IMG/VR virus record: IMGVR_UViG_3300038686_000003
Span: 1-23,402 of that record
Length of the DNA stretch: 23,402 bases
Source of the DNA: a virus
Strand: one strand, 5' to 3'
Shown here: one piece after another, positions 4,132 to 23,357 of the stretch
Layout: each line of letters begins with the position of its first letter
Position numbering within the stretch: position 1 is the stretch's first letter
The notes under the pieces: generated by a model
What the model was told of the DNA's origin: nothing
The model's input: the letters and a program-made list of their open reading frames with translations, nothing else
The model's database searches: none
Translations under genes and position numbers: made by a program

Positions 4132-4841
4132 AAGGGGACCCCATTTTCAGTGAAAACTCCATCCACTTTCCATTCGTTAACACCGGTACAATCCGGTGTT
4201 GATTGCTTCCAGGTGCCATAGTACATTTTATTATCGATATAGTGGTAATAACAGATATTTTTCTTTTTGGCGATTTCCTCGAAAGTCCTGGCTTCTTCTT
4301 TTGTAAGGTCTTTATAAGGCGGTGTAATCACTTTCCGGGCATATTCCATATCGCCCCGGTAAGTATGCCCGCCTTTGGCGGTTTTTTCCGGGAACTTAAT
4401 TTCCTGGCCGGAGGTGAAACTATATGAATAAGGTGTTGGCTGGAATTTCTTTTGAGCCAGGAATATTTTTCCCACCTGGCTATTTTCCCCCTGGGTTTTT
4501 TGCATTTTCAATCGATAGTGAGTGTTTCGAAACTGCATTTCCAGGAAACTGACAGCCGGATCGATAGGGATTGATTGCAGCGGGGGGGTGGCAAAACCGT
4601 CATTGCTGGTTTCAAATAATACAGTATCCCCGGTTTCAAAATTATGATTAATAAGGTGTACAAGTTCAACCAGGGTGGCGGTGGTGTAGGTAAAGGTAAT
4701 AGTCGATTCGGATATATCCGCCGACCACCACACATATCCCGGCCGTTCGTCAACTACCGCCAATACATCATACTTTGAGTGAGTGTTTGTGCCTGTAACC
4801 TCTGCAAAAAGGGCCGCATCGACGTAATACAGCTTATCCAT
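4128..4841 (-). CDS. Distal tail (Dit-like) protein (237 aa)
   Basis: The first gene after the tape measure is usually the distal tail protein that joins the tube to the tail tip. This one is beta-rich with many aromatic residues. Its first half (YTTATLVELVHLINHNFETGDTV) resembles a jelly-roll or galectin-like domain. The second half (EEARTFEEIAKKKNICYYHYIDNKMYYGTW) resembles the C-terminal domain of phage minor tail proteins. It begins inside the last codons of the tape measure (8-bp overlap) behind GGGAGGTGG. The Dit assignment rests mainly on position. A carbohydrate-binding tail protein is an alternative. Confidence 0.5.
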   Translation of the reverse strand: MDKLYYVDAALFAEVTGTNTHSKYDVLAVVDERPGYVWWSADISESTITFTYTTATLVELVHLINHNFETGDTVLFETSNDGFATPPLQSIPIDPAVSFLEMQFRNTHYRLKMQKTQGENSQVGKIFLAQKKFQPTPYSYSFTSGQEIKFPEKTAKGGHTYRGDMEYARKVITPPYKDLTKEEARTFEEIAKKKNICYYHYIDNKMYYGTWKQSTPDCTGVNEWKVDGVFTENGVPL

Positions 4842-7800
4842 GACCTACCACCTCCCTGGCAACATCCTTGAACGCCCCCCTGATGCCGTGGCGATTTCTT
4901 TTGATTCCGTCAACAATTTCATGAATAATATCATTATTTTCGTTATCTCCCTCGACGGTCACGGAGATGTAATAATTATTCGTTTCGTTATGTCTATATT
5001 TTGGAGTATGTGTTGAATGTCGATATTGATTTTTCGGGGTAATTCTCACGTGTTCTTCCCCGTCTTCGCCAGCCAGGAAAAAAGTCGGTTTCCTAACCTC
5101 ACCGTCAAACCCCGAAGCCGCCGCAATCGGTTTTATCCAGGATAGTGTGCTTTCATTCCACACCTCCCCCTTTTCCAGGTGGCTGTACCACTGTTTCATA
5201 GATGCTGCAAACCTATCGTATTGCCCCTTATAATCATCGGTTATTGCATCCTTATAGCTTTGAATTTTATTTAGAAAATTTTTCATATAACTTTCATCGC
5301 TTAAGATAAGGGCTCTATTGTCCGCCCACTGCCGGGCCATGGCTTTGAATTCAGTGGTTTTTTGGATTTTTTCCTCTTCGGTATATACGCCCCAGCCAGA
5401 GCCGAATCCACTTTGATTTGCCAGCGCCTGGGATTGTTTCACGATAATTTGATTGAGGGTCATGAGCACACCATCCGCGCTCATTTTATAACCACCGGTT
5501 GCGCTTGTCATATTTTGCATCACAAGGGAATATATATCTTGCATATTTGTCATCTCTGCCGGGATTTCAATGCCGATTTGAGAAACGATATCAAGCAGGT
5601 AGTCCTTAAACATCAACGTATCGGCATTCATGCCGGTCAAGATTTCGTTGTATTTGCCTTGCAGTTCCGGCATTTCAGAACTGGATGCCGTTGCCATGGC
5701 AACCTGTACATCTTTCAATTTTTTTTCCCAATCCCAGGTAGACTGTTGAAAACCGGCAAAAACACTCTGAATCACAGGTAATGCGTCTTGGAACTCAGTG
5801 TCCAGCATTCTAAGGGTGGGCTTGATATTCTTGATATCCTGATCGGTTTCAATAACTGCCATTTGAAACTTGAACCATTCATTCAAGATAGTATTGCCTG
5901 ATACCACCTGTGTATTGGTGGTATCCAATGACCTGAGCGCCCCTTCAACGTCCTGAATATTCCCCACGATATCTTGCAGCCCCCCGCCCCATTTCCCGGT
6001 CTCACCGGCAATCGAATCCATTGACGTTCTAACTTGCCCGGTCAAGTTTGATACCGCGTAGGGAATATCACCGCCAAGCAATTTAACGATTTCTTCTAAT
6101 AGCACTCTTTGTTTTTCACTATCGCTCATGGATTGGGCATTGAGCGCCCCTTCTGTAGCCGCTTTTTCGATCAGCGCGGCGGTTTCACCTTCGATAGCAA
6201 AACCGTATGATTCGGCGTATTTGATGAGCTGCGATAGTTCCGGACCCAGGATACGCAGTGCGTCTTTTTCTTTGGCACCGGCAGCAATGAGGGCGCCAAA
6301 TTGGCTGACGGCTTCATGGCCAAAAGATTTAAATAACTCTTCATTGAGGTAAGCGGAATCCCCTAATGAGGTCATCATTTGTTTTGTGGCCTCGATATTT
6401 TGAAAGAGGGTTTGATTTTGAGAGATAAAATCCGACAGGTCAATCATTTCCTGGATAGCCCCGGATACCTGGACCCCTTCCGCCTGGGCTTTTTCTTTAA
6501 GTGTAGTAAAACTATCCCCCATAAAACTAACAATTTCCAGGAAAGAATATCCCTCTTTTTCAAAAGCGCCAAAAACGCTCAATATATTCGCTTCCAGGAA
6601 ACCGGCATTTTCCGCAAATGACCCGGTCATGGTGTCCAGGTATGTATTGAGGGCCGTAACATGAGCGTTGAGTTTTTCCAACACATAATCGTTTATTTCG
6701 GCAATATTAAGCCCCATATCTCTATTCTGCCGGATAATCTGCAACATGTAAAAAGACCCTTCTTTCCCGTATTCACGGGCTTTCTGGGCTAATATTTCAA
6801 AGGATTCCCCCATTGCCTGGTTTGCTTCTTGTTGAGATAGGACACCGGCCATTACGTCGCATTGAATATCGCGGATGCGGTCGGCAAATTGATCGAAGGT
6901 TTCAAAAGACAATGACTCTTGTAATATGTCTGTCAGAAAAAGTGAGGTAGCGGCATGAGTTGAGCCTATTTCTTCGGCCAGTTGGTGAATGGAGTCGTTA
7001 AGCTGCTTATTCAAATTCATCCAGGAATTTTCCCGATCAATGGCTTCCTGGATACCGTCACCGGTGAATAAGGATATAATTCCCCCAATCACCGTTTTGG
7101 CAATAGCGCCGATTCCTGAAATAGCAGACAATCCCCCTGACAGGATATCAAAAAAAGATGCCCCCTCCTTTGTCATTGACTCAATGCCGCCCAAAATAGA
7201 GTCAAGCCCCCCCGTTATGTTGCTGATAGCAGAATTAATCGCACTAACGGCCCCCTCTGAAATAATCCCAAATTGACCGAGAACCCCGATAAACTGAGAA
7301 AAAACCCCTATCCCCTCCAGGGCTATCCCGTAAAGGAATTCAAGGGACTCCATGAAATTCATGGTCATATCTTTGGCCGCTTCAATGGATTTTCGGGTCA
7401 AGTCCGTGCTTTCTTGCATATTTCCCATTCCGGGGACATAGATATCGGAGTTAAGCTCTCCAAATTTTTCGATCTTTTCATTAAATATGGACTGGTTTTC
7501 CTGATTCAACTTAACCTGGGTCCAGACTTTTTCAAGTTCAGGCGGTATTGCCTTCCCGGCAAATTGATAACTCTCTATAAGTGCTTTCACCTCTTTGGAA
7601 ATATTTTCAACAGCATCTTTATTTGATATCCAGGTTTCCCCGGACATATTAATCGCCGAAATTAGTATCCTGGTTTTCTTTTCCAGGTCTTCATTGACGT
7701 TGGATACTAACTTTAATTTTTCAGCATATTTTTCTATTTCAATTCTCTCTTTTTGAGAAGCAATCCGGGCGGCCTCTTTTGCCTTTGTCAGGGCCTCTTC

Positions 7801-9282
7801 TTTCTTTTTGGCCTCTTCTGCTTTTTTGTTGGCCTCTTCGGTTTTCTTGATATTCTCTTGTATCTGCTGGTTGGACTTAAGAAACCCGTCCACAATTTTT
7901 CTTAGTTCGGGGGATAGTTTTTCGTAAGCTTCCTTATTTTGAAATATAGCTGCTGCCGATTTGTGTAACGAAGCGGTTTTGGTTCCTAATTCCGCCGAAA
8001 TATCCTTGATTTGCTGGGTATATTTAGCGTTTTGAACACTTGAATCTGTTAAGCCGGTTCTAACACGAGCCAGGGAATATTCCAGCTTCATTTCCCATTC
8101 GTGCAGTTGAGCGGTGGCTTTTTGCAGCCCGGTAATATCGTTGATGAAATCACCGATCGCCCAACCGGCCCCGAAGGCGGCAAAACCGGCCCCTACTTTT
8201 GCCACCATCGAATTCAACCCCCCCAGTTTCCCAACCAGGTCCTTTACCCCACCCACCAGGTTCATAATCCCTTTGCCGAAATCAAGGACCTTTTTGACTA
8301 CAAAAATTTGCAAAATCAATTTTCCTACTGCTATTATTTCATCTTTATATTTCCAGAGCGCCTTCCCCACCTCAATAATATGTGTAAGAAAATTTCCTAT
8401 AGCCTCCCCTGCTTTTTTAGCAAATGCCTCTATTTTATCCCGGTTTTCTTTGGTCCAGGCGGCCAGGTCTTTCATATAGGGGATAATGGCATCGATAATC
8501 GCCGTTCCAACAACCTCCTGGATATCTTTCCATATGGCGGAAAAACCCCGGCTCATATTGGCGAATTGATCGGCGGTGCGTATGGCATCGCGATGGGCGT
8601 CTGCTGTCCCCTTCATAATCAGGTTAACCCGCGCCATGACTTTTTCCTGCTCAGTGGCGGCCTTAATGCCGCCCCTGACACCCATTGTAAGCAACTCCTG
8701 GTTAAGGGTGTTTTGAGTCAGGATAACCCCGTACTTTTTCATGGTTTCGTGGTTTCCCACCAGCGCGGAATTGAGGTCAAGAATAACTTCCGGTTCAGCA
8801 CGATTATAAAAACTGCTAAGGTCGATGGTAAGAGCGGTCAATTGTTGACTCAATTCCCTGGCCGAATTTCGAGCAAAACCGATTGGGACAAACGTGTCCT
8901 GAAAGCTCCCCATCCAATCCCTGAGATCGGTTTTTGAGCGATTCAGGTCATCAGACAATTTTGAAATAAAAGCCGTGGCGGCCGGGGCTTCCGTTTTGAA
9001 TACCGCCAGAAACTTTGAACTGATTTCCTGGGCATCAGATGCACGTGAAACAAAATCTCCAATCGGCCCGGAAAGCATATGGTATGCTTTTTGAGCAAAT
9101 TCAAGGGCCTGGTTAAGCTTGAATGTTTTGTCAAAAAGCGCATCCATCCCCTTCCCGGCCTTTTTACTACCGGCAGCGCCCTTGCCGCCTATTTGATCAA
9201 ATTTTGACCCGACTTTTTCGAGAGTAGCGGTGCCATCCTTTGCATTGACTTTCAATGTGTAAGTAATGACACCATTTGACAT
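4834..9282 (-). CDS. Tail tape measure protein (1482 aa)
   Basis: Longest gene of the window, placed directly after the tail chaperone pair. It sets tail length by spanning the tube lumen during assembly and later helps DNA pass the host envelope. The N-terminus (MSNGVITYTLKVNAKDGTATLEKVG) is typical of tape measures. A K/E/A-rich coiled coil lies near residues 470-520 and strongly hydrophobic Gly/Ile-rich segments near 645-740, as expected for a membrane-penetrating part. The C-terminus has GFDGEVRKPTFFLAGEDGEE, the family's usual glycine-rich end motif. With the rule of thumb of about 0.15 nm per residue the tail would be near 220 nm. ATG 9282 follows GGGAG. No lytic transglycosylase or peptidase domain is evident. 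Confidence 0.92.
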   Translation of the reverse strand: MSNGVITYTLKVNAKDGTATLEKVGSKFDQIGGKGAAGSKKAGKGMDALFDKTFKLNQALEFAQKAYHMLSGPIGDFVSRASDAQEISSKFLAVFKTEAPAATAFISKLSDDLNRSKTDLRDWMGSFQDTFVPIGFARNSARELSQQLTALTIDLSSFYNRAEPEVILDLNSALVGNHETMKKYGVILTQNTLNQELLTMGVRGGIKAATEQEKVMARVNLIMKGTADAHRDAIRTADQFANMSRGFSAIWKDIQEVVGTAIIDAIIPYMKDLAAWTKENRDKIEAFAKKAGEAIGNFLTHIIEVGKALWKYKDEIIAVGKLILQIFVVKKVLDFGKGIMNLVGGVKDLVGKLGGLNSMVAKVGAGFAAFGAGWAIGDFINDITGLQKATAQLHEWEMKLEYSLARVRTGLTDSSVQNAKYTQQIKDISAELGTKTASLHKSAAAIFQNKEAYEKLSPELRKIVDGFLKSNQQIQENIKKTEEANKKAEEAKKKEEALTKAKEAARIASQKERIEIEKYAEKLKLVSNVNEDLEKKTRILISAINMSGETWISNKDAVENISKEVKALIESYQFAGKAIPPELEKVWTQVKLNQENQSIFNEKIEKFGELNSDIYVPGMGNMQESTDLTRKSIEAAKDMTMNFMESLEFLYGIALEGIGVFSQFIGVLGQFGIISEGAVSAINSAISNITGGLDSILGGIESMTKEGASFFDILSGGLSAISGIGAIAKTVIGGIISLFTGDGIQEAIDRENSWMNLNKQLNDSIHQLAEEIGSTHAATSLFLTDILQESLSFETFDQFADRIRDIQCDVMAGVLSQQEANQAMGESFEILAQKAREYGKEGSFYMLQIIRQNRDMGLNIAEINDYVLEKLNAHVTALNTYLDTMTGSFAENAGFLEANILSVFGAFEKEGYSFLEIVSFMGDSFTTLKEKAQAEGVQVSGAIQEMIDLSDFISQNQTLFQNIEATKQMMTSLGDSAYLNEELFKSFGHEAVSQFGALIAAGAKEKDALRILGPELSQLIKYAESYGFAIEGETAALIEKAATEGALNAQSMSDSEKQRVLLEEIVKLLGGDIPYAVSNLTGQVRTSMDSIAGETGKWGGGLQDIVGNIQDVEGALRSLDTTNTQVVSGNTILNEWFKFQMAVIETDQDIKNIKPTLRMLDTEFQDALPVIQSVFAGFQQSTWDWEKKLKDVQVAMATASSSEMPELQGKYNEILTGMNADTLMFKDYLLDIVSQIGIEIPAEMTNMQDIYSLVMQNMTSATGGYKMSADGVLMTLNQIIVKQSQALANQSGFGSGWGVYTEEEKIQKTTEFKAMARQWADNRALILSDESYMKNFLNKIQSYKDAITDDYKGQYDRFAASMKQWYSHLEKGEVWNESTLSWIKPIAAASGFDGEVRKPTFFLAGEDGEEHVRITPKNQYRHSTHTPKYRHNETNNYYISVTVEGDNENNDIIHEIVDGIKRNRHGIRGAFKDVAREVVGHG

Positions 9283-9284
9283 TT

Positions 9285-9596
9285 CTACTCCCTTTCCTTT
9301 TTATATTTTTCTTCTATCATCTTATTTTGAATCCTGGTAATTTCCCGTTTGATAGCCGGGATAAAATAACTGTCAAACCCCACCAGGAATGCTTCCAGGC
9401 CCAATTCCAACCGTTCAAGCTGTAACATTAAAAATTCCGCATAGGGCAGATAGCCCATAAAATCATTACCGGTAATTTTTTCATTTCGCAGCTTGCATCC
9501 CTGGCAGGCGTTTGCAGACATTTCGAGTTTTTCACAGTTATTTTCCCCTGGGCAGCCAGATTCCCCTTTATAAATAAACCTGACTGCCTTGATTAG
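9285..9596 (-). CDS. Frameshift-made C-terminal extension of tail chaperone (gpT-like)
   Basis: This reading frame is probably expressed only by -1 frameshifting from the upstream chaperone gene. It is open from C9596 to the stop at 9285 (103 residues), in phase with the slippery heptamer at 9602-9596. The fusion would be about 350 residues, the counterpart of lambda gpGT. An internal ATG at 9521 could start a 78-residue protein, but AACTGTGAAAAACTCGAA upstream contains no SD. Four cysteines (extension residues 15, 21, 31, 34; pattern CPG...C...CQGC) suggest a metal site, and the first two exist only in the frameshifted product. The rest is helical (LMLQLERLELGLEAFL) and presumably binds the tape measure, whose gene starts 3 bp after this frame ends. 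Confidence 0.8.
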   Translation of the reverse strand, partial: LIKAVRFIYKGESGCPGENNCEKLEMSANACQGCKLRNEKITGNDFMGYLPYAEFLMLQLERLELGLEAFLVGFDSYFIPAIKREITRIQNKMIEEKYKKERE

Positions 9597-9602
9597 TTTT
9601 TT
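9551..9602 (-). promoter_or_regulatory. Programmed -1 ribosomal frameshift signal
   Basis: The heptamer A_AAA_AAC (9602-9596) is in the correct phase for tandem -1 slippage (zero-frame codons AAA AAC, then TAA at 9595-9593). After a 7-nt spacer, GGCAGUCAG (9588-9580) pairs with CUGGCUGCC (9559-9551) in a 9-bp stem with one G-U pair and a 20-nt loop. Slippery site, spacer and hairpin all match the established bacterial and phage pattern. Efficiency cannot be read from sequence. Confidence 0.88.
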
Positions 9603-10336
9603 TGTTGAAATTCCAGTTCATCATCAGTGGTGGAAAGCAGCGCTTTCACCGCGTTGATTTTATGGAGAGCCGGTACATCAATAGTGATTTCAGCCGGAGG
9701 TTTTCCCAAATCGTTTTGATATCCATGGGCTTCAATAATCAGCTCATCATACAACTCACAAAGGGCACAGGCAGCGGGCCTGGATTGAAATTTCAGCTTG
9801 TTTTTTTTCATATGTTGTGTAAACGCGGTAATTCGCTGGAAATTTGTAATGTCGTTTAACGTGGGTGTTTTAAAGCAATGGCCTTGCACCAGGGTTATCT
9901 CGGCCTGGTCAGCGACGGTATAAACAATTTCATGTTCACTGTCAATGAGAGCTTCCTTGCCAAAATGTTTTTTTATTTCGGTCCAGTCCGTCGCTTTTAC
10001 TTTTTGAGCTTCTTGTGCAATAAGAATTTTATGCTTTGGGGGTACTTTTTCTTTCCATTTTTTTTGTTCACTAAAGGGATACCCCTTAACCTCTTTGATA
10101 ATAAGCTCCCAGAGGTACACATTTCTTTTGGCGGATTCTTCGGGCGTTTCGACTTCTTTTTTGAAACCGAAGTGAGATACAAACCAATCCGGGTATTTCA
10201 ATTCCAGGCAGCGCAGATTTTCTTTACTGGGCTGTGCAACTACATGCGTAAATATACCCTTCTGGGTTTCCCATGTAGGAGCAATATCTTTATCCACAAA
10301 AAATTTAAATTCTGAATTATTATTATTATTGGTCAA
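9593..10336 (-). CDS. Tail assembly chaperone (gpG-like, 247 aa)
   Basis: Sits between tail tube and tape measure, the position of the lambda gpG-type chaperone that coats the tape measure during tail assembly. It is soluble and mostly helical with no membrane segment. It begins with an Asn run after a TTG start at 10336. The strong ribosome site AAGGAGGTG lies 7 bases upstream and no ATG is available for about 170 codons, so TTG is the likely start. A CALC pair lies near residue 194. The gene ends in a slippery A-run followed at once by TAA, and a -1 slip joins it to the frame ending at 9285. Sequence identity to known G proteins is not obvious. The frameshift architecture is the main evidence. 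Confidence 0.75.
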   Translation of the reverse strand: MTNNNNNSEFKFFVDKDIAPTWETQKGIFTHVVAQPSKENLRCLELKYPDWFVSHFGFKKEVETPEESAKRNVYLWELIIKEVKGYPFSEQKKWKEKVPPKHKILIAQEAQKVKATDWTEIKKHFGKEALIDSEHEIVYTVADQAEITLVQGHCFKTPTLNDITNFQRITAFTQHMKKNKLKFQSRPAACALCELYDELIIEAHGYQNDLGKPPAEITIDVPALHKINAVKALLSTTDDELEFQQKN

Positions 10337-10350
10337 TTTGACACCTCCTT

Positions 10351-11397
10351 TTAAGCTTCAAAGTCAAGATATGAAGGAATATTATTGGTTATTACCACCT
10401 TATGCGGGGCTTCCAGGGTTTCGTCATACAAATTGGTAAAGTCAAGATCATAGATAAATGAGTCCTCTTGTTCTCCCAATTTTGAAACCTTAATCACAGC
10501 CTTTGGGACTATGATTTCAACCTTATGATAATAGGTGGATTCGATCAAATCACCTATACCGGTGATTGTGACGGCAGTTTCGGTATTATTGAGCATATCG
10601 TCATGCAGGCTGTCATCTTCAGCCTCGACACGCATTTTCAATTCGTTTGACCTTTTCTTGACAAAGGCCCTGCCCCGGCATTGAGGGGGATTACTGGTTA
10701 TCCAGTTCAACGTAGGACTTCCGGGATGATAGCCGTGTTTTTCGTTGATTTCACTGATTTGCTTAAAACTAATACTCTGTATCTTAGCATTAAGGGAAGA
10801 TGCACCGTACATAATGTTTAGGTCACTAAATGAGATAAAGCTGGTGCCGGTTAGGGCGGGCATTGAAATAGCCACTTTCTCAAAAAAACCGGACCCCAAT
10901 AATTCGGCTGAAGCTTCAATATCCTGTTCTAATTGCCCTGAAAATTCAAAGCTTTTAACCATGATATCCCTGTATTTATACTGCCAGTTGGTGGATATTT
11001 GATCCACAAACGTGGTGACCGGAAGTTGTCTGCCTACAGTAGGATCGTCTATTTTCATTTCCTTACAGGTATGCTCATACACATTGGGAGCTCCCACGTC
11101 ATCAGGTTGTATTGTGACTACATCACCCAGGCCAAAGGCAGCAAGAAATCCAATGATAAACGATGAACCGTCAAATTTTAAATTGGCACCGGAAGTACAG
11201 GTAGTATTTCTGACCATCGTGGGGTGTTCATGGCCTTTTCCAACCTGGTCAGCATTTGTTTTCTTATTACAGGTGAAATCGAAAATACTGCCGTCATATG
11301 GATGAGCATGCGTAAGTGTGGTTAAAGCCGTACCATATGCGTCTTGTTGATTGGTTGAAAAGGCACCGCGTAAGCCTGCTTTGCGTGGTACAAACAT
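10351..11397 (-). CDS. Major tail tube protein (348 aa)
   Basis: Probable tail tube subunit. The central stretch FEFSGQLEQDIEASAELLGSGFFEK resembles siphophage tail tube proteins of the Phage_tube type, in which strands alternate with a long insertion. The protein is beta-rich, without signal peptide or transmembrane segments. It immediately precedes the chaperone/tape-measure pair, as expected. ATG 11397 directly follows the stop of the 63-residue gene, with GGAGGG upstream. At 348 residues it is longer than lambda gpV but normal for this family. Repeated hexamers would stack to form the tail. Confidence 0.75.
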   Translation of the reverse strand: MFVPRKAGLRGAFSTNQQDAYGTALTTLTHAHPYDGSIFDFTCNKKTNADQVGKGHEHPTMVRNTTCTSGANLKFDGSSFIIGFLAAFGLGDVVTIQPDDVGAPNVYEHTCKEMKIDDPTVGRQLPVTTFVDQISTNWQYKYRDIMVKSFEFSGQLEQDIEASAELLGSGFFEKVAISMPALTGTSFISFSDLNIMYGASSLNAKIQSISFKQISEINEKHGYHPGSPTLNWITSNPPQCRGRAFVKKRSNELKMRVEAEDDSLHDDMLNNTETAVTITGIGDLIESTYYHKVEIIVPKAVIKVSKLGEQEDSFIYDLDFTNLYDETLEAPHKVVITNNIPSYLDFEA

Positions 11398-12078: not shown

Positions 12079-12516
12079 TTATTTCCAATATCCCCCTTCA
12101 ATGCTGATATTCTGAAAATAAACGGAATTCTGTTCATGCATAGAAAAGTCCGATCCGATATCCCCAAAAGAAAGATTGAAAGCAAGAAATCCATCCGGGT
12201 AGACTGTTGAAGATAACCTCATGTTTGCTTTCAAAGCTTTGAATACCTTCCCCCCGGCAGTTTCAACTTTTTCCTTAATGGTAACCTCGTTATCATCCCG
12301 CCCAATGATACCTAAAATTGAAACCTGGGCATTCTGTTTGACGGGTTGCTTCAATGATTCCCCGGCTTCAATTAGTATAAGATCATCCGCATTGATCAGG
12401 ATGTAAAGCGTGGCGGCTTCCGGCCTGGTTTCGCCGGTGGCAATGGCCTGGACTTCCGGGAATTGTGAACCGGCATCTATCAGGGCCGCTTTGATTACGT
12501 TTTCAAACTCACTCAT
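12079..12516 (-). CDS. Neck / tail terminator-like protein (145 aa)
   Basis: Probable head-tail joining or tail-terminator protein. It has an N-terminal helix (MSEFENVIKAALIDAG), strands carrying YILINADDLIL and AQVSILGIIG, a central helix (KEKVETAGGKVFKALKA) and a C-terminal strand (GFLAFNLSFGDIG). This alpha-beta-alpha-beta layout resembles gpU/gp17-type ring proteins. It starts at ATG 12516, sharing bases with the preceding stop as TAATG, so it is translationally coupled to the gp10-like gene. Gene order (capsid, connector, gp10-like, terminator, tube) supports the assignment. Confidence 0.5.
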   Translation of the reverse strand: MSEFENVIKAALIDAGSQFPEVQAIATGETRPEAATLYILINADDLILIEAGESLKQPVKQNAQVSILGIIGRDDNEVTIKEKVETAGGKVFKALKANMRLSSTVYPDGFLAFNLSFGDIGSDFSMHEQNSVYFQNISIEGGYWK

Positions 12517-15588: not shown

Positions 15589-16341
15589 ATTAACCTCCTT
15601 TTCTTCCCGGGAAGGTGTGGAATGCGAAATACCGCCCAGGTAGAATGTATTTTTTGATATTGATTTGTAGTGCTCTAATTTTTCCTCTAAGGCTTTGGCT
15701 GATGAGTCTGCCCCGTACCACACCAGGGACAATTCAAGCCATTCAATAATCTCTGTGACCAACCAGCGCACGATCTCCCCCTCAACCTCAATACCCATCG
15801 CATCATAGAAATCATCAAAACTCATTTTGTGGCTTTGCTCTATTGCCTCAAGCAATGTGTATGAGCAGCGATTAGCCGCCCCTGTTTCAACGTTCCTGGC
15901 AATTTTTGAGTCAACCTGGCTGTCAACACAAAGGGTGGAATCAATCCCGGAAAGGCCGTTTTTTATTTCCGAGTAACGGAAATTAGTCGTATAACCAATG
16001 ATTGAATCCACAGACCACCAGTGATCCTTGAAAAGCGATAGCTTATCCGGGAAAAGCTCTACACTTTTCTTTAAAACACCAGGCACTCCATAATCGAAAA
16101 GCCCCCAATAATTCCAGACTAAAGTCTCTGAAAGACCACGAAAGTCTTTAGTAATAAAACCTTCCGGCACTTCAACTAATGACGTGTTTTTCTTTTCTTC
16201 TTTCTCTTCATCCCCGGTAGGTTGAGTATTAGATTGCTGCTTTTGGAAGATAGTCTTTTTCAGGGGAACAATCGAAATATCCTGAGGGACAATCAACACG
16301 TTCCCTCTCATATAGTCTTTTATATTTAAAGTTTTTCTCAT
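15118..16341 (-). CDS. Prohead protease fused to scaffold domain (U35 type, 407 aa)
   Basis: Residues about 60-220 match the HK97-type (U35/Caudovirus) prohead protease: VPGVLKKSVELFPDKLSLFKDHWWSVDSIIGYT holds the likely catalytic His (about residue 107), NRCSYTLLEA the likely Ser (about 160), and LELSLVWYGADSSAKA the conserved E-V/L-S-L-V motif near 202-215. A 60-residue Lys/Glu/Gln-rich N-terminal region precedes it. The C-terminal third is the coiled-coil scaffold. The protease would trim scaffold and capsid during head maturation. I start at ATG 16341 (AGAGGTG upstream), which overlaps the portal stop as ATGA. The longer reading to 16374 lies inside the portal gene. Confidence 0.8.
   Translation of the reverse strand: MRKTLNIKDYMRGNVLIVPQDISIVPLKKTIFQKQQSNTQPTGDEEKEEKKNTSLVEVPEGFITKDFRGLSETLVWNYWGLFDYGVPGVLKKSVELFPDKLSLFKDHWWSVDSIIGYTTNFRYSEIKNGLSGIDSTLCVDSQVDSKIARNVETGAANRCSYTLLEAIEQSHKMSFDDFYDAMGIEVEGEIVRWLVTEIIEWLELSLVWYGADSSAKALEEKLEHYKSISKNTFYLGGISHSTPSREEKEVNMDPEIQAIISMMKEAGKECATLTQVKDAITTIITENTTLKGQVNTLEGQVKTLQPQKELNEKVMTDLRAEVEKFTRLTRGTGDNKVLGDMEKQLIQNATYDQLTKWKEEREKEYEKIIPPLTCATCGSTNISHRSSIEVPPEAQVEEKVTLKPLSI
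15593..15600 (-). promoter_or_regulatory. Internal ribosome binding site for nested scaffold
   Basis: AAGGAGGT on the minus strand, a full match to the anti-SD core, lies 4 bases upstream of the in-frame ATG at 15588. It is among the strongest SD sequences in the window, and it sits inside a coding region, which argues that it is selected. Confidence 0.75.
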
Positions 16342-18767
16342 TTTAGCACCTCTAATATTGCTTTTAAAATGCACTTACAAAGCACATGAAAGGGCGGAAT
16401 TCCCTTTCCTTTTGCCAGCAGTTCCGTAATATCTTCCCCGGCTTCATCGATGGATACATTTGAATTTTTCAGGACTTCCGCAGCATCTTTCATGTCGTCA
16501 TTGTCAATCAGGTGCATTAAAGCGTTATAGACATTATATGATTTAGTGACCGGGATTCTTTTCCCGTGGAGCTTCCGGCAGATTTCACAGGTTGACATAT
16601 CCAGGACGGCCACTATTTCCGCATACTCGAAACCGGCCTCAATCAACTGGGTAAGATAGCTATAGGTTCGCAGCCGGTTCAAAGAAGAGTTGACAATACG
16701 TTTCATCTGCGCTTCGATATCGCCCTTGAGCGCCCGTCCAAACAGCCGCTTGAATTCCTTCTTTGCGTCATCGGTAAACTGCGAAAATTCGACCTCTCCC
16801 CGCTCGAATAATTTCGTAACATACTCTTTGATTTGAGACCCGAAATCCTGGTTATCCAGGTAGCCGGAGAAATAATAATTATCAAGCTTTTCAAACAGTT
16901 CGCAGGCTTTCATGTCGCCTTCACCGAACCGGAATTCTACCTCCGGTTTAGTCCCACCGAAAACGGTCAAATCATCCAGCTTGAAATACTTCCCCGCATC
17001 GATAACAAGCGTTTTGGATGTTTCACGAAACCAGGAGTCATTTTTGATGTTCTTGTATGACTCATGTTCCTTGATGTGCCCCTTGATTTTTTCCAGTAAC
17101 TTTTCCGGTCCCCCTTCAGCGGAAATTTCCTCTAAATTTTTCTGGACATATTCAAGGGTCCAGTCCGTAACATCCTCTCCCAATTGGTCCCAATAGGGCA
17201 GGGTTTCTCTCAGGTAACCCTCGATAAGCTGCCGCATCTTTTTCTCCGCGGCTTCAGCTATTTTCTTATCATCATCCTTATGGGACACCTTGAACCGGTC
17301 CAGGTCGATTTGATTTCGTTGTAGTAGGTATCTCTGTTTCTGTGAATTCCAGGCAAAGATTTTTTCAACCTTTCCTCGCTTCATGGAAACGGCTTCCGGG
17401 GAGTCTTGAGTGATTTGCTGGTAGAGTAACTCGACATCATACCAGTCACCATATCCCAATTCTTGAGCACCTTCATCCGGGCTGATCATTCCCTTTGATA
17501 CTTTATCCCATACGGTGGCAATGTCGTACCTGGAAGCTAAGGCTTCTACGTTTGGGTTTAATCTAAAGTCCTTATTAAACTGTAATGATAGTTCTTCCGG
17601 GAAAAGGCTATTCAATTCCAGGTGGAGTCGGTAGGTTTTCTCTTGCCGTCGTTTGATTAGCCGTCGCAGGTTGGAAGCCATTTGAATATACATGTTATAG
17701 ATGACCGTTGAATAGGTTTCCGTGGTGCTGTAGGGCCTGCCGTGTAATGCGGAATGGGTTTTACTGCCGGAAAAGACCTGTTCTTCAATGACTTGCAGGA
17801 TTTCCTTGACCCCCCGGTAATCGGTAGTCAAGGCATGATTCCCCCACTCCCACCCCTCCGGGATTACCAGCAGCCCTTCAGCGTAATTTTCATTAATGGA
17901 TTTTGCAACGTTCTTGAGATGTTCTTGATTTCTCAGGGCATAATCATCATCCGACTCACCGGCATTTCTTTGTAAGGGCTTCACCTTCACGATATTGAGA
18001 CCCAGCAGCCCTAATTTTTTCAACGCATAACGTAAATTCTTGAACGCATCCTTTTGCAGGATGAGCGGTTCAAGAGCACTCAACAGCGGCGGCAGTGCAT
18101 AAGGGGAATTATCGATGGTCTGTAATGAATAGTACGAATAAGTCACCGGGTTGAGTTGAACAAGGCCCAGCAAAGACGAACCGGAGGTGGTAGGAAAGTC
18201 GGTCTGTTGATAGGGCATATATTCGTCATCGATATAGCGAAAACGAATCGTATCCATCGGCACGGTGACAACTTTTTTCACCCCCCGGAAATTCGGTAAT
18301 AAGACGTCTTCACTGGAAATCCCGCCATGCCGGGTCCCCTGGTTGGCATAGTGGTTGAATAACCCGTCAACCCCGGCTGAATGCTTATATATCTCATAGG
18401 CCGCCTCATTGATCAAGTCCATCGATGCATCGATAACACTTGAATTAGGGTCCTGGATCACAATCTTATGACCCGTGTTGACCATATTCTGAGTATTTGA
18501 AACAACCTGCGAGAGATCAGGATTGACGGCGGTCACAAGGGTGATATGCTTCAGCACTTCAAAAGGCACTGCCGGGTTGATATAGTCATAGTGAGCGGAA
18601 AGAGAATTGAGACCGGAAAGAAAAGTCCCGGTTTCCACCGAAGACCGCCCCCCTTCCGGTAATACATCGATACTCACGGAGTCCTGCCGGGATTTCTTGA
18701 ACGAAAAAGAAGGCAGCTTCCAATTTTTCGTATTCCAGAGGGTCCTTTCACCTAAATTAATGCGCAT
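16338..18767 (-). CDS. Portal protein fused to Mu F-like domain (809 aa)
   Basis: N-terminal residues about 40-460 form a portal of the DNA-packaging dodecamer: SALEPLILQKDAFKNLRYAL, LLVIPEGWEWGNHAL and a long helix-rich stem (RRLIKRRQEKTYRLHLEL) are portal-like. The C-terminal part, from about residue 640, is the Mu gpF / SPP1 gp7-type minor head domain, ending with STCEICRKLHGK (Cys near 727 and 730) and PPFHVLCKC (Cys near 797 and 799), a likely metal site. These are two separate genes in many phages. I start at ATG 18767 (GGAGGTAG upstream). The reading from 18833 would lie inside the terminase gene. It overlaps that gene by 11 bp. Confidence 0.82.
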   Translation of the reverse strand: MRINLGERTLWNTKNWKLPSFSFKKSRQDSVSIDVLPEGGRSSVETGTFLSGLNSLSAHYDYINPAVPFEVLKHITLVTAVNPDLSQVVSNTQNMVNTGHKIVIQDPNSSVIDASMDLINEAAYEIYKHSAGVDGLFNHYANQGTRHGGISSEDVLLPNFRGVKKVVTVPMDTIRFRYIDDEYMPYQQTDFPTTSGSSLLGLVQLNPVTYSYYSLQTIDNSPYALPPLLSALEPLILQKDAFKNLRYALKKLGLLGLNIVKVKPLQRNAGESDDDYALRNQEHLKNVAKSINENYAEGLLVIPEGWEWGNHALTTDYRGVKEILQVIEEQVFSGSKTHSALHGRPYSTTETYSTVIYNMYIQMASNLRRLIKRRQEKTYRLHLELNSLFPEELSLQFNKDFRLNPNVEALASRYDIATVWDKVSKGMISPDEGAQELGYGDWYDVELLYQQITQDSPEAVSMKRGKVEKIFAWNSQKQRYLLQRNQIDLDRFKVSHKDDDKKIAEAAEKKMRQLIEGYLRETLPYWDQLGEDVTDWTLEYVQKNLEEISAEGGPEKLLEKIKGHIKEHESYKNIKNDSWFRETSKTLVIDAGKYFKLDDLTVFGGTKPEVEFRFGEGDMKACELFEKLDNYYFSGYLDNQDFGSQIKEYVTKLFERGEVEFSQFTDDAKKEFKRLFGRALKGDIEAQMKRIVNSSLNRLRTYSYLTQLIEAGFEYAEIVAVLDMSTCEICRKLHGKRIPVTKSYNVYNALMHLIDNDDMKDAAEVLKNSNVSIDEAGEDITELLAKGKGIPPFHVLCKCILKAILEVLK

Positions 18768-20382
18768 AGAAGCTACCTCCCGCCGCATAGAGCGGCAGCC
18801 CAAAGGGTTTAACCACCGGCAATTTTGAAGCAATGCGCATCGAATTTAACGCCATACCGAAATGGTTGTCAATTTTATGCACGTAACTCTCAACCATGCT
18901 GCCGTTGGCCCTTTCTTTCCTCTCTTTTTTCAGGTTTTTCAAATGATCCCTGAATTCGGTCATACCTTCACTGTTCTTTTTAGGAAGTAGAATTTTTTGT
19001 TTCTGCAATAAGCTTGTGGTTTTATCCAGGCTTTCATCTCGATTGACACTCACTGTTAATACTTTTTTGTCCTCATCCATATCCTCATCGTAATGCTCAT
19101 CCCCCGTGAGAACACTTCCTTTTACAGAGTCTATGAAATACTGGATATAAGCAAACCCTTTATGAGTTTGAGCCCAATCTTTAGCCTTTCCCTTATTTGG
19201 TGTGGCATCTCCCACCGCGCACCAGACATTATGCAGGGTCATCAATTCATCAAGCCGCTTCCATTTCATGGTCTTTTCAAACCAATGTACAACCAGTTCA
19301 TTACCCACCATATGACCGATAACAATATACAGCCAGTCCCCCTGGTCGTATCCCAGGTAACTACAGGACGCAAAAGGAATTAACCCGTGAACACCGTGGC
19401 ATTCATTCAAAACTTGATCGGTAATCGGTTCTAATTTCCCGGCAAAAGGCAGCCCCGCCACCGACTGATGGACCCGTTTGGTGTCGTCAATATCTTCCGC
19501 TTGATTCAATAGCTGATAAGCCTGGTCGCCGGAGCTTTTGAATCCCGGCGGTATCCAGGTCCAGTATAACTGCGATAGATGATATCCCCTGCGTTCTTTA
19601 TTCTTTGGTTTTCTTGGCACCCATTTTGCCTTCCTGGGGTCCAACTCTTTCTTGCACCGGTAACACCCTAAATAGCCGCCCTTCCCTTTCTTAAGCGGAA
19701 AAAGGTTTTTCGGAAAGTGCTCAATCACATCGTTCCAGGTATTGCACTTCGGACACTTCATGAGCCGGAAATGCTGATCGCTTTTTTGAAACTCAAGGTC
19801 AATGCCAAAACCGGGCAGAGTCGGCTTTGATAACATGTGCAATTGCGGAAAACGTGAGCGCATCAGCCGGTCTTTTGCTTCCTTTGCCAGGACCTGATTG
19901 GAGATGTCAAACTCATCAAAAATAAGGGTGTCCGCGTCTGTCTCAGACACATCTGAAAGTGTGTTGAGTCCACACATATGAACCGAAGTACCGGTTTTCA
20001 ACTCTTTTAGATGGTGGGAATCAGTGATCCGTTTTAATGTGGGCATTTGATCGATGATTTTATCGATGCGGTTAGGAGTGAAGTTCTTGAAAAAATCCTT
20101 TGAAGGTGCGTAATAGATACCCTTAGCGGACTTAATCCTTGCTCTCCAAAAAATATATAAGATTGCCCAGGTGGTAATCCCTATCTGTACACCTTTCCTG
20201 AATACTTTATGAGGGTGCATATCCCTGTATATATCCTCTAATTCTTCAAACCCATTAAAAGAAAAAGTGACATTCTTTAATTTTAGATTTTGAGATAATA
20301 CCCAATCAACGAAGATATTACTCCTTTCCTCACTATCGATGCGCCTGATCAATAATTCAAGACCGGTTCCCGTTTCGCTCAT
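18757..20382 (-). CDS. Terminase large subunit, GpA-like (541 aa)
   Basis: ATPase-nuclease motor that cuts and packages DNA. FRKGVQIGITTW (residues about 61-72) is a P-loop-like Walker A in which the usual Gly-Lys is replaced, and DTLIFDEFD (about 151-159) is Walker B. A four-cysteine zinc ribbon (about C210, C213, C240, C243) is typical of the lambda gpA family. The nuclease domain has LGYDQGD (about residue 344), VGDAT (about 390) and an Asp near the C-terminus in YVHKIDNHFG. ATG 20382 overlaps the small-subunit stop as ATGA. The length is slightly shorter than the usual 600-650 residues of GpA proteins. Confidence 0.87.
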   Translation of the reverse strand: MSETGTGLELLIRRIDSEERSNIFVDWVLSQNLKLKNVTFSFNGFEELEDIYRDMHPHKVFRKGVQIGITTWAILYIFWRARIKSAKGIYYAPSKDFFKNFTPNRIDKIIDQMPTLKRITDSHHLKELKTGTSVHMCGLNTLSDVSETDADTLIFDEFDISNQVLAKEAKDRLMRSRFPQLHMLSKPTLPGFGIDLEFQKSDQHFRLMKCPKCNTWNDVIEHFPKNLFPLKKGKGGYLGCYRCKKELDPRKAKWVPRKPKNKERRGYHLSQLYWTWIPPGFKSSGDQAYQLLNQAEDIDDTKRVHQSVAGLPFAGKLEPITDQVLNECHGVHGLIPFASCSYLGYDQGDWLYIVIGHMVGNELVVHWFEKTMKWKRLDELMTLHNVWCAVGDATPNKGKAKDWAQTHKGFAYIQYFIDSVKGSVLTGDEHYDEDMDEDKKVLTVSVNRDESLDKTTSLLQKQKILLPKKNSEGMTEFRDHLKNLKKERKERANGSMVESYVHKIDNHFGMALNSMRIASKLPVVKPFGLPLYAAGGSFYAH

Positions 20383-22223: not shown

Positions 22224-23357
22224 TTACCTCCAAAAATAGACTGTAAGGAAACTAAAGATCAACCTTAGCTCCTCTAAAAACTGCACTTTCTCAAGGTACT
22301 TCCGGTAATTCTCCGGGTACTCTCCAAAAAATTCCCGGACAGCTTCTACCACCCCCATGATTGAGTCAAGCGGGTCCGTGCGCTTTTTCCCGTATACCAC
22401 TTCAACGCTCAATTTCCCAGCCCATGCGGCTTTGTATTTTAAATCGAATAGGCATTTGACAATCGTTTTTACTTTCGACTTTGTGGGCCGGGGTTTACGC
22501 ACCCCGTCCTTTGAAATTAGCAGGTTTCGAGTGCCCCCCGGTGGCGGGTTCTCTCCCAGCATTTCTTTGAGGTTGATTAAATTCATGCCATGGCATGGTG
22601 AGATGCACCTGTCCTTGAACCACTGCCCCCACTCCTGACCCAACTCTTTCATGACAATATTGCGAAACTTCCGGTATAACTCAGCATAGCGCGGGTCTTT
22701 TTCTTTGAGCGGGTACTCGACACCCAGGATGATGTCATGGGCCGGTACATCCTTCCTGATAAGGTAGATGAACGTGTCCGCTAAGAACTCAGGCGTACAC
22801 AGGTTGAGCCGGGGTTCATTGACTAACTCATAACCCATCACCCTATCTTTGTCTATTCTCAGGAAAGCATCAATATACTTGTGTCTTGCCTCTCTGGCAT
22901 TCTCCCCGTAAAAGTAAGATTCGCCAAAGGCAGCCCACGGATTAGAGGGATTCTTACGGATTCCACAGTGATCGAAAAGAGAAATCCAGACCTTTACGCC
23001 GTTCTTGTTATAAGTCGTGATAATCTCTTTCCAATTACGCTCAAAGGAATCAAGGACCTCGATGGAACCGGAAACCACATTGAAAGGACGCAGCTTTTGC
23101 AGGGAATCTTCACTGTCGATCCAGAACGAAAACTCACGGACATTCCCTGCGTATCGGCCAATATATTCCGCCATTTTCTCCACCTGCCAGGTGTCCAGGG
23201 TGCCGTCATCATCGAAGTACGAAATGATATAATCCCCCCTGAGCATGGAGTAACCACCCAAAGGAGAGTAAAATATCTTTACCCGGTCAGCGGCAAAGGA
23301 AAAGACAGTGAAAGCTAAAACCAAAACAACAAAAAAGAACTTACGCAAATTACCCAT
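22224..23357 (-). CDS. Secreted GH5-like glycoside hydrolase, possible lysis enzyme (377 aa)
   Basis: A Sec signal peptide (residues 1-23, FFFVVLVLAFTVFSFAA) is followed by a TIM-barrel-like body. YELVNEPRL (about 176-184) carries the Asn-Glu-Pro of clan-A glycosidases, with the Glu near residue 181 as general acid/base. VKVWISLFDHCG (about 121-132) and SPCHGMNL (about 253-260) look like barrel strands with active-site polar residues. The nucleophile is probably the Glu near 319 (LSVEVVYGK), which is a guess. The C-terminal 15 residues are hydrophobic and may anchor it. ATG 23357 follows AAGGAG. It heads the cassette before membrane proteins and terminases, where an endolysin is expected. The substrate (peptidoglycan glycan or surface polysaccharide) cannot be told. 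Confidence 0.7.
   Translation of the reverse strand: MGNLRKFFFVVLVLAFTVFSFAADRVKIFYSPLGGYSMLRGDYIISYFDDDGTLDTWQVEKMAEYIGRYAGNVREFSFWIDSEDSLQKLRPFNVVSGSIEVLDSFERNWKEIITTYNKNGVKVWISLFDHCGIRKNPSNPWAAFGESYFYGENAREARHKYIDAFLRIDKDRVMGYELVNEPRLNLCTPEFLADTFIYLIRKDVPAHDIILGVEYPLKEKDPRYAELYRKFRNIVMKELGQEWGQWFKDRCISPCHGMNLINLKEMLGENPPPGGTRNLLISKDGVRKPRPTKSKVKTIVKCLFDLKYKAAWAGKLSVEVVYGKKRTDPLDSIMGVVEAVREFFGEYPENYRKYLEKVQFLEELRLIFSFLTVYFWR

Follow-up and report, generated by a model that had tools for sequence, protein, structure and literature searches.

A probable lambda G/GT-type programmed −1 frameshift in the tail assembly chaperone genes of an uncultured tailed phage and four relatives

The 23,402-base IMG/VR virus record analyzed here (IMGVR_UViG_3300038686_000003, henceforth the window) is a metagenomic contig of an uncultured tailed virus. 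Between its tail tube and tape measure genes lie two overlapping reading frames, G and T, which, judging from their sequences, very probably form a programmed −1 ribosomal frameshift pair of the lambda G/GT type, yielding a minority 351-aa GT protein for tail assembly. The window contains a frameshift signal and an open −1 frame, and both the slippery site and the −1 frame are conserved in five loci.

Results

Slip site and reading frames

The head and tail genes of the window are located on the minus strand, with the gene order tail tube, G, T, tape measure (Table 1). At minus-strand positions 9602–9596, the zero frame (CAA AAA AAC) divides the heptamer AAAAAAC in the X_XXY_YYZ manner, and the stop codon TAA of that frame comes directly after it. 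The −1 frame continues for 103 sense codons up to a TAG at 9287–9285, and the ATG of the tape measure gene follows at 9282 after a gap of 2 nt. All four elements agree with the initial annotation, which had described an in-phase A_AAA_AAC, a TAA immediately 3′ of it, a −1 frame open for 103 codons to 9285 and a tape measure gene starting 3 bp further on. The region in which the two frames can be joined spans 22 nt in the window. The encoded tape measure protein (1482 aa) is similar to annotated tape measures in tblastn searches, for example that of Methanoculleus virus Blf4.

By itself, the heptamer is not rare in the window genes: A_AAA_AAC or G_GGA_AAC occurs in phase six times (the slip site and five others), and in-phase XXXYYYZ sites make up 0.55% of codons. 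A second in-phase A_AAA_AAC in G (9806–9800, minus strand), probably a chance match, was considered as a shift site and rejected because only 14 codons of −1 frame follow before it closes. It is the combination of position, stop codon, hairpin and open −1 frame, and its recurrence in four relatives, that goes beyond chance.

Table 1. Features of the G/T region and flanking genes in the window.
Feature	Position	Strand	Remarks
Tail tube protein gene, upstream of G	10351..11397	−	Pfam Phage_tube_2, E 2e-6
G, zero-frame tail assembly chaperone gene	9593..10336	−	247 aa; TTG start with AAGGAGG ribosome site
Duplicated domain, first copy in G	10007..10252	−	hhalign of G halves: probability 93%, E 3e-7
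Duplicated domain, second copy in G	9638..9886	−	hhalign
Slippery heptamer A_AAA_AAC	9596..9602	−	Zero-frame phase; XXXYYYZ pattern at same place in four relatives
Zero-frame stop TAA	9593..9595	−	Directly 3′ of heptamer
Stimulatory hairpin (putative)	9551..9588	−	13-bp stem (9588–9576 with 9563–9551) plus 3 inner pairs
T, −1-frame extension	9285..9596	−	103 codons plus TAG; G + T = 351-aa fusion
C-x5-C-x9-C-x2-C cluster in T	9495..9554	−	Invariant in 5/5 T sequences; possibly zinc-binding
Tape measure gene	4834..9282	−	tblastn to annotated tape measure proteins; starts 2 nt after T stop codon

Related loci

Five loci were compared: the window, two mosaic relatives and two distant phages. The mosaic relatives are L002, found by a scan with the major capsid protein, and L004, found with a T alignment; the distant phages, L016 and L017 (about 60% GC), were found with a DNA pattern for the cysteine motif of T. 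For these last two, independent evidence accordingly comes from the heptamers, frames and stem and not from the motif. No relatives emerged when IMG/VR was scanned with the single sequences of G, T and the tape measure protein, or when genomes were scanned with the terminase or the T alignment, and tblastn of L004 G and of T against cultured phages revealed no homologues. A Leptospira plasmid gave a portal match but was set aside for tail comparison, as this element has contractile-tail-type genes.

L002 is about 93% identical to the window over most head genes and diverges from about window position 12107 downstream, in the tail region; this mosaic junction lies at about 9807 in L002. The terminase gene is also partly diverged between the two (72% at 19136–19935). 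Identity of the window G to the G proteins of L002 and L004 is about 30%.

All four homologous loci are laid out like the window, and each has an in-phase heptamer at the equivalent position. Three of the five loci (window, L016, L017) carry A_AAA_AAC, and L002 and L004 carry G_GGA_AAC. In the latter two, G terminates in G_GGA_AAC TGA, while in L016 and L017 the A_AAA_AAC lies within G, 21 nt before TGA.

Conservation of the −1 frame

The T sequences of the four relatives align with that of the window from the first codon, at 21–33% identity. The first 25 T codons all lie upstream of an internal ATG at 9521; over this stretch, none of 2000 shuffles reaches the score of any pair, and scores are far lower in the zero-frame control. 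Between L016 and L017, the first 36 codons of the −1 frame differ at 3, 3 and 14 sites in codon positions 1, 2 and 3, respectively. The T proteins are similar from the slip site onward, ahead of any ATG, and not just from ATG 9521.

These data bear on the possibility that T is a separate protein whose translation starts at ATG 9521, either by reinitiation past the stop codon of G or by coupling. This ATG does lie in the −1 frame, and a methionine is present near that position in four of the five T sequences. However, no Shine-Dalgarno sequence was found for it, as the initial annotation had stated, and T conservation begins about 25 codons further upstream, taking in two of the four invariant cysteines. 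L004 moreover has no equivalent of this ATG, and a start codon in its T comes no earlier than codon 65, so that independent initiation cannot make the conserved part of T. In the same locus, a −1-frame TGA directly precedes the heptamer and the zero-frame TGA directly follows it, and therefore only GGGAAAC can join the two frames. We consider a separately initiated T very improbable.

Slippage of RNA polymerase on the run of seven A residues, generating mRNAs of altered length that join the frames without ribosomal slippage, is suggested by the A7 at the window site, yet appears to be of similarly slight probability. It is unlikely as a common mechanism because two relatives, L002 and L004, use GGGAAAC at the same site, where there is no long homopolymer; in addition, an in-phase heptamer with a downstream hairpin at ribosomal spacing suits ribosomal slippage. 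Lastly, because the window is a metagenomic contig and a homopolymer lies at the slip site, one might suspect that G and T are truly one frame, separated by gene decay or by an indel introduced in sequencing or assembly. The probability of this is close to negligible given that the frame changes at the same place in five contigs, with differing heptamers and stop codons, and that both frames are conserved as protein.

Hairpin downstream of the slip site

Seven nucleotides (TAATCAA) separate the heptamer of the window from the putative hairpin. The previously described spacer length and hairpin position were confirmed, whereas the stem comprises 13 bp plus three inner pairs rather than 9 bp. 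Its predicted folding energy is −19.3 kcal/mol (z = −3.71); none of 200 shuffled sequences is as stable, and this level is reached by 0.7% of 50-nt segments on the coding strand. No Rfam match was obtained.

L016 (GGCAUCCGA/UCGGAUGCC) and L017 (GACAUCCGA/UCGGAUGUC) have in common a 9-bp stem, 8 nt downstream of the heptamer. At one position of this stem a G-C pair is replaced by A-U, pairing being kept. As both substitutions alter the −1-frame amino acid (G to D and A to V), this single covarying pair in two sequences suggests selection at the RNA level. The stability of both stems is unremarkable for GC-rich DNA, being reached by 12–20% of segments. Only weak long-range pairing was found after the slip site of L002, where the hairpin significance test was negative, and the same test revealed no structure above background in L004; neither locus has a hairpin as strong as that of the window. 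Conservation of the predicted hairpin across the five loci is thus partial, since L016 and L017 share a stem, pairing in L002 is weak and L004 has nothing above background. In the comparison with relatives proposed in the initial annotation, the slippery pattern is present at the same place in four of four, whereas the stem is only partly kept (in L016 and L017 but not in L004). One might speculate that a strong hairpin offsets a weaker slippery site.

Architecture of G and T

The two halves of G are homologous to each other in the window, L002 and L004 (hhalign), and each half matches the single-domain G of L016 and L017 (E 5e-5 and 2e-5). In plain BLASTP, the halves of L004 G gave no match to each other. 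G in the window group has thus probably arisen by tandem duplication (9638–10252, minus strand, in the window), with the slip site located after the second copy. The T sequences share the motif C-P-G-E-x2-C-x8-A-C-x-G-C, invariant across the five loci.

Neither G nor T of the window has a significant family match of its own, T being without a Pfam match. G of L017 matches the tail assembly chaperone family phrog_344 with E 0.0098. Both structure models are of low confidence. A fold search with the low-confidence G model against viral models gave no match below E 0.001; among the named top matches, all above that value, tail and tape measure chaperones are frequent. G also matched the Scapp and Loki GT fusions in full-length fold comparison, but with an rmsd above 20 Å, and nothing beyond the names was taken from these matches. 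A fold search against the PDB returned nothing meaningful.

Other features of the window

Two overlapping minus-strand ORFs in different frames (873–1430 and 935–1201) resemble pieces of a C5 cytosine methylase, as if frame-disrupted; the first has a Pfam DNA_methylase match of E 2e-4, just below the cut-off, and the second is similar by eye only. An 831-aa ORF (16338–18833, minus strand) appears to encode a portal protein fused to a C-terminal minor head/head morphogenesis domain. Another minus-strand ORF (22224–23357, 377 aa) has a signal-peptide-like start and a VNEP motif and looks like a glycoside hydrolase by eye only, with no Pfam or PHROG match. No tRNA genes were found in the window.

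Discussion

Proposed mechanism

An in-phase heptamer followed by a hairpin at ribosomal spacing fits ribosomal slippage, and we propose the following model for the G/T pair. Most ribosomes would end G at TAA 9595–9593. A minority, held up by the hairpin while AAA occupies the P site and AAC the A site, would undergo tandem slippage of the Lys and Asn tRNAs on A_AAA_AAC, one base back from AAA-AAC to AAA-AAA, and would then read the 103 further codons, giving the 351-aa GT. Asn having already been decoded, tandem slippage should give the junction QQK-N-LIK (ALLSTTDDELEFQQK-NLIK). The QQK-K-LIK junction proposed in the initial annotation would result from slippage in the P site only.

By analogy with lambda, G would coat or bind the tape measure protein, and GT, the rarer form, would recruit tail tube subunits through its T part (review, PMC5009743). 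We infer that slippage occurs and that the hairpin contributes to it; by the same analogy, the slip rate would set the G:GT ratio needed in tail assembly. Shifts of 6–7% have been measured for two tail chaperone frameshift genes tested elsewhere (PMC3711429).

The lower slipperiness of A_AAA_AAC compared with A_AAA_AAG in E. coli (PMC5009743) counts against a frameshift at the window site. A proven bacterial insertion-sequence frameshift with A_AAA_AAC has no established stimulator (PMC4066793). Downstream RNA structure, common but not universal in systems of the lambda G/GT type, is present in the window, and L016 and L017 have a stem.

Comparison with known systems

The slippery heptamer of lambda is GGGAAAG. 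The window shares with lambda the gene order, the −1 direction and a chaperone with a rarer extended form, and differs from it in the heptamer and in proteins that are not detectably similar (PMC5009743). The earlier description of a lambda G/GT arrangement with another slippery sequence is thus supported by the relatives, with the qualification that A_AAA_AAC is not new at this gene. Indeed, frameshifting of this type is ordinary in tailed phages, and both heptamers have been reported at this gene before.

In Acinetobacter phage Loki, the tail assembly chaperone frameshift pair gp12/gp13 carries AAAAAAC next to a stop codon, and the same motif is found in IME_AB3 (PMC5313236). According to its record, Loki resembles the window in having TAA directly after AAAAAAC, a hairpin 8 nt downstream and a −1 frame beginning LIE. 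In contrast to the window, its G (146 aa) is not duplicated, its T is without the four-cysteine cluster, an extra gene precedes the tape measure gene, and there is no detectable sequence homology. The same two heptamers as in our five loci occur in the pre-tape-measure chaperone of Caulobacter phages, AAAAAAC in gp93/gp94 of the phiCbK-like phages and GGGAAAC in Colossus (PMC3556154), these being unrelated phages by the searches run. Burkholderia phage KL1 gp18/gp19 has GGGAAAC immediately upstream of the TGA stop codon of its chaperone gene (PMC3483164), like L002 and L004, and differs from the window in having an extra tail gene before the tape measure gene. The g-t shift sites of haloviruses HCTV-1 and HCTV-2 are G_GGA_AAC and A_AAA_AAC, respectively (PMC5009743); these viruses, which have archaeal hosts, were compared with the five loci by their shift sites.

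Implications

The system is less usual only in its duplicated G and in its four-cysteine T domain. As a tentative possibility, somewhat short of an even chance, the five loci may represent a subfamily in which a metal-stabilized, tube-recruiting four-cysteine T is added by frameshift to a G that is duplicated in the window's group, with the slippery site (A_AAA_AAC or G_GGA_AAC) and the hairpin strength having been swapped among related phages while the shift is kept.

For annotation, G and T are best recorded as one joined product. The very probable frameshift extends a well-known recoding event to uncultured phages of an uncharacterized group, while the four-cysteine T domain offers a handle on the possible recruitment of the tail tube protein by GT.
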